Positions 22,150 through 32,659 of a stretch of DNA of 32,659 bases are shown here, piece after piece. The DNA comes from Candidatus Sumerlaeota bacterium (lineage in GTDB: Bacteria > Sumerlaeota > Sumerlaeia > JAPLSS01), in the NCBI GenBank assembly GCA_026398515.1, contig JAPLSS010000502.1, positions 1 to 32,659 on the forward strand, written 5' to 3'. How positions within the stretch are numbered: position 1 is the first letter of the stretch; each line of letters begins with the position of its first letter. Under the pieces are notes generated by a model, which saw only the letters and a list, made by a program, of their open reading frames with translations, was not told the DNA's origin and made no database searches. Position numbers and translations under genes: made by a program.

Positions 22150-22300
22150 CTTCCTGGCTTTCGGCGTCGCTCGCGGCGCCGCCGAATCCCCGCAAGAAAG
22201 TCATTGATCGCTCCGAGGGATTATTCGAGAGTTTGGCGTTTTGCGCCGCCGGGCAGGACGGAGCGGCTTCGAACCGTCACGCAACAGGACATGGGCCGTC

Positions 22301-23674
22301 GTGATCGTCACACAACGGAAGCGCGTCCCGTGGGTGTGGGTCTTCTTAATGGCCCTGCCGTATTTCTCCAACAGCCTCGTGGAGGGGGTCAGCGGGTCGG
22401 CGCTCACGTTCACGATGAAGAAGTTCATCTCGAACCCGGCGCTGATCACTTTTCTGGGGAGCATCAACGTCCTGTTCAACTTCATGGTCGGTCCGTTTGT
22501 CTCTTACACCAGCGACCGCAACTGGACGCGCTTTGGACGACGCAAGCCGTTCATCATCACGGGTTGGATCGGCCTGATTCTCTCGCTCATCGTCACTCCC
22601 CTGGCGCCGAACATCTGGCTCCTGGCTGTCGCGATTGTCTTCTATCAGTTCTTCCAGGATTTCGCCTTTTCCGGCCCGTACGATCCCTTGTACTATGAAA
22701 CCGTCCCCTTGCCTCAGCGCGGACGCGGCCAGGCGCTCGTGGTATTGATGAACAACTGTGCAGGTTTGTTTTTCAACTACGTGCTCATCGGGCATTTTGA
22801 CGAAGTCTACAATCTCCGGCTGAACCTGGGCGTTCTGCATGTGCCGGTGGCGCTCACCGGCGAGCAGATGATCTACCTGGTCGCCGCTTCCGTCGTGACC
22901 TTCATGGTCTTTCATATCGGCTGGAACGTCAAAGAGACGCCGGTCCAAAGTTCGGTGATCGGCGAGCGGTTCTCGATGCGCCGCTTCCTGAAGGGCGTGT
23001 TTGGCGAGAGGCAATGGATCGTCATCTACATCCTGATCTTCTCGCAGGTGGCGATGAACCAAGGCCTCAATCAGCTCGGTCCGCTCCTCATCACCGAGCA
23101 ATTCGGCTACTCGAAACAGGCGCTGGGCGAGCTGGGCGCCATCACGACGCTCCTTCGGATCGTCGTGCTCATCCCCATCGCCGGCTATTTCGCCGACAAG
23201 ATCGATCGCGTGCGGATGTTTCAGACGGTGCTGATCCTGTCGACTCTGCACCACATCATTTACTGGGGTTTTGTGCACTTTATCGCGCCGAAGCCGACGT
23301 TCTGGGCGATCGTGGCGTTCGATTGTCTCGGCTCGTTCGTCTCCGTCGCCGGGAACATCGCGGTCGGCCCGCTGTTCTTCGACTTCGTTCCCCGGGATCG
23401 GATGGGCACGGTGTACGCCGGCATGAGCTTTGTGCGCGGGCTCGTCAAGATCACGGTGATGAATGGAGTCGGAATCTGGATCACCTGGTATGCAAAGATG
23501 TTTCTTCCTGCCGGGCAGTACGACTACATGAGCGGCTTCCTCTATACCTTCCTGTTGGGTTGCATCGGCTGCGCGGCCAGTTTCTACTTCATTTCGCAGC
23601 GGAAGAAAGGCCGCATCATCGAATACGGACGCCTGGACCAGGAGAGGCCGACCCCCGGACCGGACGCGACGTGA
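22301..23674 (+). CDS. MFS / GPH-type sugar transporter, copy 1
   Basis: This 457-aa polytopic protein has about twelve membrane segments. It carries the loop 2-3 motif SDRNWTRFGRRKPFI, characteristic of the glycoside-pentoside-hexuronide and related sucrose-type transporters, and FADKIDRVRMFQ in the second half as the repeated motif. Substrate and coupling ion cannot be read. The GTG start at 22301 is chosen because it aligns exactly with the ATG of the tandem paralogue at 23780 (both begin IVTQRKRVPW after the first residue) and yields the same 457-aa length; AGGA lies upstream. It is followed by the paralogue after 105 bp. The two diverge mainly in membrane helices and in the loop near residue 225. 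Confidence 0.88.
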   Translation: MIVTQRKRVPWVWVFLMALPYFSNSLVEGVSGSALTFTMKKFISNPALITFLGSINVLFNFMVGPFVSYTSDRNWTRFGRRKPFIITGWIGLILSLIVTPLAPNIWLLAVAIVFYQFFQDFAFSGPYDPLYYETVPLPQRGRGQALVVLMNNCAGLFFNYVLIGHFDEVYNLRLNLGVLHVPVALTGEQMIYLVAASVVTFMVFHIGWNVKETPVQSSVIGERFSMRRFLKGVFGERQWIVIYILIFSQVAMNQGLNQLGPLLITEQFGYSKQALGELGAITTLLRIVVLIPIAGYFADKIDRVRMFQTVLILSTLHHIIYWGFVHFIAPKPTFWAIVAFDCLGSFVSVAGNIAVGPLFFDFVPRDRMGTVYAGMSFVRGLVKITVMNGVGIWITWYAKMFLPAGQYDYMSGFLYTFLLGCIGCAASFYFISQRKKGRIIEYGRLDQERPTPGPDAT

Positions 23675-23779: not shown

Positions 23780-25153
23780 ATGATTGTTACTCAACGGAAA
23801 CGCGTTCCTTGGCTATGGGTCGTCCTGATGGCCGTGCCGTTTTTCTCCGACACCTTCGTGGAACAATGCACGTTGCAGGCGCTGCCGTTCACCCTGAAGA
23901 AGTTCATCTCCAACCCGGCGCTGATCACCTTCGTGGGCAGCTTCAACATCCTGTTCAACTTCCTGGTCGGGCCGTTCGTCGCCTACAAGAGCGACCGCAT
24001 TTGGACGCGGTTCGGCCGGCGCAAGCCGTTCATCATCGGCGGGTGGATCGGCTTGGCGAGCGCGCTGGTCTTCACCCCCTTTGCGCCCAATTTCTGGGTT
24101 CTGGTGGTTGTGGTTGTTGTTTATCTGTTCTTCCAGGACCTGGCTTTTTCGGGGCCTTATAATCCGTTGTTCTACGAAGTGGTCCCGCTGCCGCAGCGCG
24201 GGCGCGCCGCGGCGTTCAACGTCTTCATGCAAAATATCGCCGGCTTGTTCTTCAGCGCCTTTTTCATCGGCCATTTCGACGAGGTCTTTCACCTGGGTTT
24301 GGGTCTGTCGTGGCTCCACGTTCCGGTCTCGGTGACCGGCGAGCAAGTCATCTACTTCACGGCCTCCGCGATCGTGGTGGGCATGCTTTTGCTCATTGGC
24401 CTGAACGTGAAAGAGACGGAGGTGGAAAGCCCGCTGCTCGGGGAACGGTTCTCCCTGCGGATTTTCCTCAAGAGCGTGTTCGGTGAGAAGCAATGGGTCC
24501 TCATTTACTTCCTCATTTTCTCGCAGATCGTCCTGAATCAGGGGCTCAACCAGCTGGGGCCCCTGCTGATCACCGAGCAATTCGGCTTCTCGAAACAGAT
24601 GCTCGGCTACATGGGCTTCATCAGCGGCATGCTTCGCATCCTGGTGGCCATCCCCATCGCCGGCATCTTCGCCGACAAGGTCGACCGGGTGCGCATCTTC
24701 CAGGTGGTGCTCATCCTGGCGACCCTCCACCACATGATTTACTGGACGTTCATCCATTTCTTCGCGCCTCACCCGACGTTCTGGGTCGTCGTCGGCTTCG
24801 ATATCGCGGGGACGTTCATCAACGCGACGGGGAACATCGCCGTCTGGCCCCTGTTCTTCGATTTCGTTCCGCGCGACCAGATGGGCACGGTGACCGCCGG
24901 CATGGGGTTCGTTCGCGGCATCGTCAAGATCGTGGTCATGAATTTCGTCGGCGTCTGGATCGCCTTATACTCCAAATTCCTGATGCCGCCGGGCACGTAC
25001 GACTACATGAGCGGCTTCCTGTGCACCTCCCTGCTGGGCGTTCTCGGCTGCGCCGCCAGTTTCTATTTCATGGCCGAGCGAAAGAAGGGCCGCGTCGTGG
25101 AATACGGACGCCTGGAGCAGGAAGGCCCGTCGCCCAGCGCCGAGACGGAGTGA
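23780..25153 (+). CDS. MFS / GPH-type sugar transporter, copy 2
   Basis: This 457-aa protein is a close paralogue of the transporter at 22301-23674, with the same length and collinear motifs: SDRIWTRFGRRKPFIIGGWI after helix 2, VVPLPQRGRAAAFNVFMQN near residue 135, NQGLNQLGPLLITEQFGFSK near 255, and FADKVDRVRIFQ near 298. The family is most likely a sugar/cation symporter in the inner membrane. Conservation of exact length suggests selection on both copies rather than decay. The ATG at 23780 follows AGGA by about 13 bases, as in copy 1. A GC-rich hairpin at 25184-25216 follows. Confidence 0.88.
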   Translation: MIVTQRKRVPWLWVVLMAVPFFSDTFVEQCTLQALPFTLKKFISNPALITFVGSFNILFNFLVGPFVAYKSDRIWTRFGRRKPFIIGGWIGLASALVFTPFAPNFWVLVVVVVVYLFFQDLAFSGPYNPLFYEVVPLPQRGRAAAFNVFMQNIAGLFFSAFFIGHFDEVFHLGLGLSWLHVPVSVTGEQVIYFTASAIVVGMLLLIGLNVKETEVESPLLGERFSLRIFLKSVFGEKQWVLIYFLIFSQIVLNQGLNQLGPLLITEQFGFSKQMLGYMGFISGMLRILVAIPIAGIFADKVDRVRIFQVVLILATLHHMIYWTFIHFFAPHPTFWVVVGFDIAGTFINATGNIAVWPLFFDFVPRDQMGTVTAGMGFVRGIVKIVVMNFVGVWIALYSKFLMPPGTYDYMSGFLCTSLLGVLGCAASFYFMAERKKGRVVEYGRLEQEGPSPSAETE

Positions 25154-30721: not shown

Positions 30722-31375
30722 TCAATAGAAAACCCGGGGAATGATGAACTGCCGCTGGTTCAGGATGACGCCCTGCACGGGACAGCCGTTGCTCTGCAGA
30801 TCCGTCAACGCCCGCTTGACCACCTCGCGCTGCGTCGAATGGGCGCGCACCACGACGTAGAAATCGTCGATCTCCGACACCCCGCGGTAGACGTGAATGT
30901 TGACCAGCACGGGCGAGCAATCCACTACGATCAGGTCGAACCGCGTCTTGAGTTCCGAGAGCAACTGTGGAAGGCGCGTCGACACCTGCAGCGGCGCCGA
31001 GGCGATGGAATTCAGATTAAAGGGAATCAACGCCACCGAGGGGCCGATTTGCGTCTCGTGCAGGATCTCCTCGACGCTGACGTTGCCCATCACGTAGTCC
31101 GTCAGTCCGGGATGGCCGGTCTGCTCCAGCAGCCGGTTCAGCTCCGGATTGTCGTAGTTGGCGTCGACCAGGCAAATCCGATAGCGTTCGCCGTTCTCCA
31201 TGGCGATGCGCCGGACGAGGTTGAGCACGATGGTCGTGGTCCCCTCGCGGCGAGTCGAGGACACGAACGCCACCGCCAGCCCCACACCCGCCGGCGCCTT
31301 CTCCGCGCGGCGCCGATAGATCCGCGTCAGCAGCGCATCGAGCTCCGATTCGATGTTGACGACGCCCGGGCTCAT
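30722..31375 (-). CDS. CpsD/CapB-like exopolysaccharide ATPase with degenerate P-loop
   Basis: This 217-aa protein has the fold of bacterial tyrosine kinases that regulate polysaccharide polymerisation with a Wzz-like partner. Walker A is SSTRREGTTTIVLNL, with Thr46 where Lys is expected in GK[ST]T. Walker A' is ICLVDANYDNPEL (Asp71), and Walker B is DLIVVDCSPV (about 138-147). The C terminus has a single Tyr as last residue rather than a Tyr cluster. The Lys replacement suggests weak or absent ATP hydrolysis, so it may be structural or use another residue. Its start overlaps the stop of the Wzz-like gene by four bases, so the two are translationally coupled. Confidence 0.82.
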   Translation of the reverse strand: MSPGVVNIESELDALLTRIYRRRAEKAPAGVGLAVAFVSSTRREGTTTIVLNLVRRIAMENGERYRICLVDANYDNPELNRLLEQTGHPGLTDYVMGNVSVEEILHETQIGPSVALIPFNLNSIASAPLQVSTRLPQLLSELKTRFDLIVVDCSPVLVNIHVYRGVSEIDDFYVVVRAHSTQREVVKRALTDLQSNGCPVQGVILNQRQFIIPRVFY

Positions 31376-32659
31376 GGGTCCGTCCTCTGCTTGGAGATCG
31401 CGGCGATCACGGGAATCTCCAGGCGCCGTTCCGCGTCATACACCGTCTTGATCGAGTGGTCCCAACTATCCACCAGGAACGCCATCCCGAACGCCAGCGC
31501 CAGGCCCAACACGAGTCCCAGCGCCATGTTCAGCTTCTTGTTGGGCCGCGTCGGCGCGATCGGCGCCAGCGCCGGGTCCAGCACGCGGATGTTGGCCTGG
31601 TCCTCGGGACGCAGGTTCGTGGCCAGGCGCGCCCGCTCGTGTTCGTCGATGCGCGTCCGGTAGATCTGATCGGCCACCGCCACCGCCCGCGTGAGCGCGC
31701 TGTATTGGTACTTTTGCTCGGCGAGGCGCTTCAGCCTCTCCTGGTACGTGCCGATTTCCTTCTTCAGCGAGTCGCGCTCCTCGACGGTGGCCACCCGCTT
31801 GGTCTCCCGCGCCGCCAGGTCCTGCTCCAGGAGATCGGCCACGATGGTCAGCGCCTCTTTGATCTGATCGCGCACATCCTGCAGCGGGCGGTACTCCTCC
31901 GTGAACTTCGATTGCAGCGACATCAATTGCAGGCGCAGCTCGTTGAGCCGGTTCATGGACGTCGTCAGCGAGGGGTTCTCGATCGCCGCGTCCGGAGGCA
32001 GGAACAGCTTGCGACTCAGGTCGCGTTCGTCGGTTTCGGTAAGATTCTCGGGGTGTTGGACCAGTTCGCGGACGTACTCCTGGCGCTTGATCAGCTCGTT
32101 GAGCACCCGCTCCTGGCGCGCGATGTCGGCGTCCAGCCGGCCCACCTGCGCCTCGAACTCCGTCAGCTGCGCATAGACGCGCACGCCGCCCTTCTCGTCG
32201 TTGAGAATCTCGGCCAGGTCGCGGCTGTTGGCCTCCTCGTATTGCCGCAACGCCTCTTCGGCCTTTTGCAGGTCGGCGCGGGCTTGTTCCGCCTGGGTGT
32301 TGAGGAACTGGCTCTGGGACGAGGCGTCGCTGCGCTCCATCTCCCAATAGCGCTGGATGTACTGGTCGGCCACGGTGTTGGCCAGCAGCGCGGCCAGGTC
32401 CGGTCGGTTGAAGTTCGCGGCGATGTTGATGATATAGCTATCGCCGATGTCCGACGCGCCCAGAAGCCCTCCGGTCGCCCCGGAACGCGAGTACACCGCC
32501 AGCATCGCTTGAAGCGCCGCCACCTGTTCGCGGTCGCTCGCCTGGCCGAAGCGCTTCTCGAACACCTCCTTGAACGCCGGGGAGTCGGCTTTCAGGCGCT
32601 CCAGAACGCGTCCGGCCACAGTGGCCGAGATGATGATCTCCTTCTGGGTCTCCAGGAAG
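31372..32659 (-). CDS. Wzz/GumC-like polysaccharide chain-length protein, N-terminally incomplete
   Basis: The gene enters from the right edge; 428 codons are visible and the first membrane helix lies outside. The visible part starts with LETQKEIIISATVAGRVLER, typical of the early periplasmic domain. It continues with long coiled-coil segments (about residues 110-310 of the visible part) and ends with the second membrane helix (LNMALGLVLGLALAFGMAFL) followed by the cytoplasmic tail DSWDHSIKTVYDAERRLEIP. Such proteins control exopolysaccharide chain length or export together with a CpsD-like ATPase, which follows with a four-base overlap. The apparent GTG at 32619 is not a start because the frame stays open to the edge. 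Confidence 0.92.
   Translation of the reverse strand, partial: FLETQKEIIISATVAGRVLERLKADSPAFKEVFEKRFGQASDREQVAALQAMLAVYSRSGATGGLLGASDIGDSYIINIAANFNRPDLAALLANTVADQYIQRYWEMERSDASSQSQFLNTQAEQARADLQKAEEALRQYEEANSRDLAEILNDEKGGVRVYAQLTEFEAQVGRLDADIARQERVLNELIKRQEYVRELVQHPENLTETDERDLSRKLFLPPDAAIENPSLTTSMNRLNELRLQLMSLQSKFTEEYRPLQDVRDQIKEALTIVADLLEQDLAARETKRVATVEERDSLKKEIGTYQERLKRLAEQKYQYSALTRAVAVADQIYRTRIDEHERARLATNLRPEDQANIRVLDPALAPIAPTRPNKKLNMALGLVLGLALAFGMAFLVDSWDHSIKTVYDAERRLEIPVIAAISKQRTDP

Follow-up and report, generated by a model that had tools for sequence, protein, structure and literature searches.

In Wzc and CapB, kinase subunits that are not phosphorylated assemble into an octamer, with the Tyr tail of a subunit inserted into the active site of its neighbor, an arrangement that is loosened by phosphorylation (PMC8285477, PMC11986026 and PMC3795738, from the available portions of their text). 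According to the accessible part of PMC3795738, the EX2RX2R motif contributes roughly half of the canonical ring interface, and the mutant CapA1B2(K55M) is an octamer with bound ADP-Mg; for Wzc, the available text of PMC8285477 describes K540M as a homogeneous octamer, and its authors state that neither kinase nor phosphatase activity is dispensable. These laboratory mutants are BY-kinases (BYKs) deprived of the Walker A Lys that nevertheless form octamers, and Wzc K540M variants supplied with ADP and Mg, like CapA1B2(K55M), contain ADP-Mg. BY pseudokinases paired with polysaccharide co-polymerases of the PCP-2 class have also been described already, namely EcpK with EpsV and HfsB with HfsA, in PMC12004946, the available text of which credits earlier sequence-based examples of pseudokinases to Cuthbertson et al. 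In M. xanthus, EcpK is a stand-alone protein with the BYK fold and no catalytic residues that accompanies EpsV, a PCP-2 lacking a BYK domain; as described in that text, all three Walker motifs are missing from it, and its C-terminal region, a helix with several Lys/Arg residues, contains no Tyr. HfsB/HfsA of the Caulobacter crescentus holdfast, compared here through its description in the same text, likewise comprises a stand-alone pseudokinase without a Tyr-rich tail and a PCP-2, both of which are needed. In PslE of Pseudomonas aeruginosa (PDB 9v6l and 9v75, eight chains each) a BYK-like part instead forms the end of a chain of 660-670 residues; the accessible portion of PMC6813494 mentions neither a Walker motif nor a kinase in connection with PslE, and no paper on the PslE structure was found in the literature searched.

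The locus described here lies in the window, that is, the whole 32,659-nucleotide stretch of DNA that was analyzed, which is one complete contig (C813) of a 7.6 Mb genome assembled in 1012 contigs. We judge that a gene at its right end quite probably encodes a catalytically dead BY-kinase, or BY pseudokinase, acting as the cytoplasmic subunit within a PCP-2 polysaccharide co-polymerase encoded by two genes. The observations behind this reading are that the protein has the BYK fold, that Lys46, the second Walker A' Asp, the EX2RX2R motif and the Tyr cluster are lost, that the gene overlaps one for a PCP, and that such losses recur in homologues with the same tail. The features concerned are the following.

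30722..31375, minus strand: BY-kinase-like protein (CpsD/CapB fold) of 217 aa, Lys-less, a predicted BY pseudokinase (profiles, AlphaFold2 model and Foldseek).
31372..32658, minus strand: PCP, a Wzz/GNVR-type polysaccharide co-polymerase (GNVR PF13807, E 9.7e-11; TIGR03017 and TIGR03007, both below cut-off).
31232..31267, minus strand: degenerate Walker A, FVSSTRREGTTT (residues 37-48; translation and codons).
31238..31240, minus strand: residue 46, Thr (ACC), in the place of the catalytic Lys (codons and homologue rows).
31151..31177, minus strand: Walker A', ICLVDANYD (residues 67-75), with the first Asp kept and the second replaced by Asn73 (translation and homologue rows).
30911..30934, minus strand: Walker B, LIVVDCSP (residues 148-155), with Asp152 kept (translation and homologue rows).
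31328..31348, minus strand: place of the EX2RX2R octamer-interface motif (residues 10-16), where residues 10, 13 and 16 are S, D and L.
30725..30760, minus strand: C-terminal tail, NQRQFIIPRVFY (residues 206-217), with Tyr217 11 residues past Asn206.

Both genes read leftward and share 4 bp, the stop codon of the PCP gene overlapping the ATG of the gene for the predicted pseudokinase. The 5' end of the PCP gene is cut off by the end of the contig; the part that lies within the contig contains no BYK domain and has, on its C-terminal side, a short stretch after the last hydrophobic segment. As with EcpK and HfsB, the predicted pseudokinase is thus encoded separately from, and paired with, a BYK-less PCP-2. 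Elsewhere in the window, two adjacent membrane-transporter-like ORFs on the plus strand (22241-23674 and 23780-25153) are evidently alike by eye, and two adjoining ORFs on the minus strand (1-420 and 276-935), one of which reaches the contig end, each contain a prepilin-like FTLIELLIVVAIIAI stretch.

Assignment of the 217-residue protein to the P-loop BYK fold follows from its sequence and from a structural model. It matches TIGR03018 (E 2.5e-23, 82.5 bits against a cut-off of 230.65) and TIGR01007 (E 1.7e-21, 76.7 bits against a cut-off of 108.05), and among solved structures the closest to it in sequence are VpsO, BceF, CapB1 and Wzc. The autokinases that these two profiles describe (CpsD, CapB and XrtA-associated proteins) share the fold and the position of the gene beside one for a PCP, but the window protein scores below both cut-offs and lacks the catalytic residues. 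An AlphaFold2 model prepared from a four-row alignment has a mean pLDDT of 80.9 and a pTM of 0.83, with pLDDT below 50 in the last five residues; its top Foldseek match is the Wzc kinase octamer (E 1.9e-10), and VIA-align gives Z values of 23.6 to Etk and 23.5 to Wzc K540M. A MinD/ParA/BcsQ-type identity was rejected, as VIA Z values are 21-24 for BYKs versus at most 17 for MinD-like chains.

Comparison with active BY-kinases shows which parts of the catalytic apparatus are missing. The Walker A Lys is replaced by Thr46, the Walker A' DxD reads DAN at residues 71-73, the EX2RX2R interface motif is absent, and the tail carries a single Tyr where the active enzymes have a cluster; the Walker B Asp (Asp152) is present. 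The preliminary description had reported a Walker A without the P-loop Lys and a Tyr cluster reduced to one Tyr, both of which are borne out (Thr46 is encoded by ACC at 31240-31238, and Y217 is the terminal residue), as well as retention of the Walker A' and B Asp residues, which holds for Asp71 and Asp152 but not for the second Walker A' Asp, now Asn73. The additional loss of this Asp makes the case for a dead kinase stronger. Having the BYK fold without Lys46 and the second Walker A' Asp, and a single Tyr in place of a Tyr-rich tail, the protein resembles the described pseudokinases; unlike EcpK, it keeps Thr47, Asp71 and Asp152 and ends in Pro-x3-Tyr, and is therefore a variant of this type and not an EcpK orthologue. 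The gene arrangement differs as well, since epsV and ecpK are not neighbors by their locus tags (MXAN_7421 and MXAN_7447) whereas the window genes overlap.

A search of 193 related genomes with the window protein gave matches in 123, the best of them ~31-34% identical; no close orthologue was found among these genomes, and the 'orthologues' compared are distant members of a subfamily. Among the homologues a tail of the form N-[KRQ]-R-x3-[IV]-P-x3-Y recurs, often followed by 2-3 further residues, and mostly in proteins that read EGT, EGV, EGA, EGC or EGR instead of EGK. A profile (A1) was run over 386 genomes, and sequence was obtained for 113 of the 150 listed matches, including all of rows 1-86; as A1 was built from tail-bearing, mostly Lys-less sequences, the sample leans towards such sequences. 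The other classified rows come from the genome searches with the window protein and from a plasmid search. Rows with identical last 60 residues were merged, and the tail class was defined as N, 5-7 residues, [IVL][PS], 3 residues, Y and no more than 6 residues before the stop. MinD-like rows from the window's own genome were omitted from the counts while two of them are present in the tree, which therefore has 96 tail-less rows versus 94 counted.

Among the matches listed, Lys is absent from 24/30 of the homologues with the tail motif versus 2/94 of those without it, a contrast between mutually related rows for which no p-value is given. One sequence with Thr for Asn and Lys kept (L091) lies outside the tail pattern, and its inclusion would make the first count 24/31. 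The preliminary description had named Lys in the orthologues at residue 46 as the outcome that would speak against it; the distant homologues aligned here did not bear this out, since most of the tail-motif rows lack Lys, and the second copy in the window's own genome is among the 24 Lys-less proteins. The tail does not require loss of Lys, as six of the 30 tail-motif rows among the matches listed keep EGK[ST], four with a typical tail (L004, L008, L009 and L079) and two with a more Tyr-rich one (L014 and L094). The two tail-less, Lys-less rows in the matches listed are L149 and L151, of which the former reads DGATT and has a truncated tail and the latter is a longer protein with EGTST. A Lys-bearing BYK in which an IPDFIYK stretch is followed by a Tyr cluster (L093, the same protein as L174:9007-9822) is possibly an intermediate between the two tail types. 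A scan of genome contigs added three distant loci, of which one, from Zixibacteria (L037), is Lys-less and tail-bearing. The plasmid search gave 657 matching records; the two sequences inspected among the 40 listed, from Deinococcus (L158) and Paraburkholderia (L159), are both Lys-bearing; a second plasmid search, with L116 as the query, gave no matches.

The residues around the missing Lys are not lost evenly. In the 24 Lys-less tail-motif rows among the matches listed, S/T47, Asp152 and Asn206 are each present in 24/24 and Asp71 in 23/24, Asp152 being likewise present in 92/92 of the Lys-bearing tail-less rows. Between these same two sets of listed matches, the second Walker A' Asp, D73, falls from 87/92 in the Lys-bearing tail-less rows (the other five of which also have N at 73) to 2/24 in the Lys-less tail-motif rows, D161 from 91/92 to 7/24, and the EX2RX2R columns from 81/92 to 7/24 (E10), from 78/92 to 2/24 (R13) and from 78/92 to 5/24 (R16). 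In the tails of the 24 rows, again among the matches listed, Arg208 is found in 22; Pro213 and Tyr217 are found in all, which the selecting pattern largely demands; the Tyr stands at +11 from Asn206 in all, although any place from +11 to +13 would have satisfied the pattern; and in 20 the tail extends 14 residues past the Asn. Nucleotide binding without kinase action would fit this residue pattern of the 24 listed rows, and its conservation suggests that the window protein may itself bind nucleotide.

Retention of so many residues is also what could be expected of a kinase that is still active, with the role of Lys46 taken by some other basic residue, such as Arg208 of the tail, possibly acting in trans, and with Tyr217 as the acceptor. 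In WNK kinases, another basic residue does the job of the catalytic Lys. The conserved columns at 47, 71, 152 and 206, the near-constant Arg208 and the constant Tyr217 (a residue that the selecting pattern requires), together with an Arg in place of the Lys in L005, are compatible with such an enzyme; however, D73, D161 and EX2RX2R are mostly lost along with the Lys, and residue 46 is variable in the Lys-less tail-motif rows among the matches listed (T8 V7 A5 C2 R1 I1). Moreover, Arg208 is also found in 4/6 of the listed tail-motif rows that bear Lys, and thus tracks the tail and not the loss of Lys. An active kinase of this kind is accordingly regarded as improbable. A relocated Lys is not favored either, as the columns inspected contain no newly conserved Lys, only the tail-linked Arg208.

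When the tree is calculated with column 46 and the tail left out of the alignment, the Lys state requires at least 9 changes, versus 20-26 in 20 label shuffles, and thus follows descent. One clade with an SH-aLRT of 96 in a quick tree unites proteins with Lys (L004 and L008) and with Arg (L005). An independent-pair test yielded one usable supported pair, and most deep branches of the tree are weak; separate losses of Lys are therefore not demonstrated.

Gene neighborhoods were analyzed with a local PCP profile grown from the window PCP, for the 22 of the 24 Lys-less tail-motif proteins that had a wider contig. A PCP gene is adjacent in 12 cases and two genes away in four, and is fused in two; none was found nearby with this profile in 4/22 loci. 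Seven of the PCP/Lys-less gene pairs overlap by 4 bp. OPX genes (Poly_export/SLBB by Pfam) lie near seven loci, five of them Lys-less (L042, L050, L054, L055 and L056) and two Lys-bearing, the candidates having been picked by position, and Wzy_C, flippase and sugar transferase genes are Pfam-identified neighbors in single loci. At L051:7429-9081, a protein with AAA_22 and SPOR domains is encoded between the PCP and the Lys-less gene; this pairing is typical of XrtA/exosortase clusters. The window's own genome contains a second Lys-less copy (on contig C193, reading EGVTQ), which overlaps another PCP gene by 4 bp (pair at L040:3723-6055). In this copy the Walker A' region is degenerate (VRWTPP) and Asp71 is lost; the pocket is thus not kept in every member.

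The genomes also bear on the alternative that the Lys-less protein serves as a regulatory subunit in assemblies shared with a canonical, active BY-kinase of the same cell, as has been proposed for CapB1/CapB2 in the available text of PMC3795738. A TIGR01007 match above cut-off is present in 13/21 genomes with Lys-less copies, as a mixed assembly would need, but some of these matches are the Lys-less copies themselves: five Lys-less members (L187, L205, L206, L207 and L208) score 128.8, 125.5, 114.4, 111.2 and 110.5 bits, and would probably be named 'tyrosine autokinase' automatically. The search of the window's genome revealed no BYK with the Lys, the six family matches there being the two Lys-less copies and four KGGVGK[ST] proteins of MinD/ParA/Mrp type; in 7/21 genomes the Lys-less copies are the sole matches at E <= 1e-12, save for one MinD-like protein in G000. 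A further genome, G093, would join these seven but for two weak matches besides its two Lys-less copies (128.8 and 125.5 bits to TIGR01007); the eight genomes are 72-96% complete. For EcpK, the authors of PMC12004946 argue in the available text for independence from active BYKs. Mixing with an active partner thus seems to us an unlikely role. A sequencing error or decaying pseudogene, for which it may be said that the gene lies on a single draft contig and has no close orthologue, is very improbable, and error as the cause was rejected, because ACC is at least two substitutions from the Lys codons AAA/AAG (which rules out a single base-call error), 217 codons are open with the start overlapping the PCP stop, and many homologues, including the second copy in the same genome, have lost the Lys as well.

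On the reading as a pseudokinase subunit, the closest man-made counterparts are CapA1B2(K55M) and Wzc K540M, which apart from the Lys have an intact kinase site and still carry the Tyr tail, whereas the window protein additionally lacks EX2RX2R, the Tyr cluster and the second Walker A' Asp. Part of the subfamily tail appears to occur in a known PCP: the C-terminal INRRRFEVPS of PslE aligns with it at the same N-to-P spacing, the alignment with L041 running through RRRFEVPS and ending before the Tyr position, where the window protein reads NQRQFIIP. PslE, as a single long chain unlike the stand-alone window protein, was compared through this tail stretch. The tail itself was not met in the literature searched, where the motif is unnamed and the searches were directed at other terms. 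Pseudokinase partners of PCP-2 are thus already known, and what the sequences suggest to be distinct here is the fixed, Tyr-ending tail together with the retention of much of the nucleotide pocket.

A mechanism can be proposed in which the pseudokinase, with no phosphorylation by the window protein expected, would bind the cytoplasmic tail of the PCP and help to build or stabilize the PCP ring. More tentatively, by analogy with the laboratory CapB K55M mutant, the old site may still hold nucleotide-Mg, and the fixed tail (Arg208, Pro213 and Tyr217) might stand in for the phosphorylatable tail by docking either on the PCP or on a neighboring subunit. On this scheme, binding or nucleotide state, and not phosphorylation cycles, would govern assembly. 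A bolder version, which we consider doubtful, would make the PCP-2 subfamily, across many lineages, the natural counterpart of K540M and K55M, that is, nucleotide-bound, kinase-dead rings in which the fixed Tyr (+11 from the last-strand Asn) sits permanently in the dead site of the partner as an unphosphorylatable latch, with assembly switched by nucleotide or PCP binding. Loss of EX2RX2R, given its share of the ring interface as described in the accessible part of PMC3795738, argues against a simple copy of the Wzc ring. Since, in the available account of the Wzc authors, kinase and phosphatase are both needed (PMC8285477), a ring like that of K540M alone would not work in Wzc. The likeness to K540M-type mutants is therefore partial, both on account of this kinase/phosphatase cycle and because the window protein has lost more than the P-loop Lys: the second Walker A' Asp and the two elements of the canonical interface, the Tyr cluster and EX2RX2R, are gone as well.

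The suggestion in the preliminary description that polysaccharide control here differs from the CpsCD/Wzc scheme fits these results, although the idea itself has already been published for EcpK/EpsV and HfsB/HfsA, as the available text of PMC12004946 makes plain; taken as a whole, the earlier reading of nucleotide binding without kinase activity and of a different control is partly supported. The prevailing model of capsule and exopolysaccharide export rests on cycles of Tyr phosphorylation. The sequences suggest that systems with Lys-less, short-tailed relatives may run without phosphorylation, and a group that keeps a partial pocket and a single Tyr, without the Lys, the Tyr cluster and usually the second Walker A' Asp, would be a good natural system in which to ask what the phosphorylation cycle is for.
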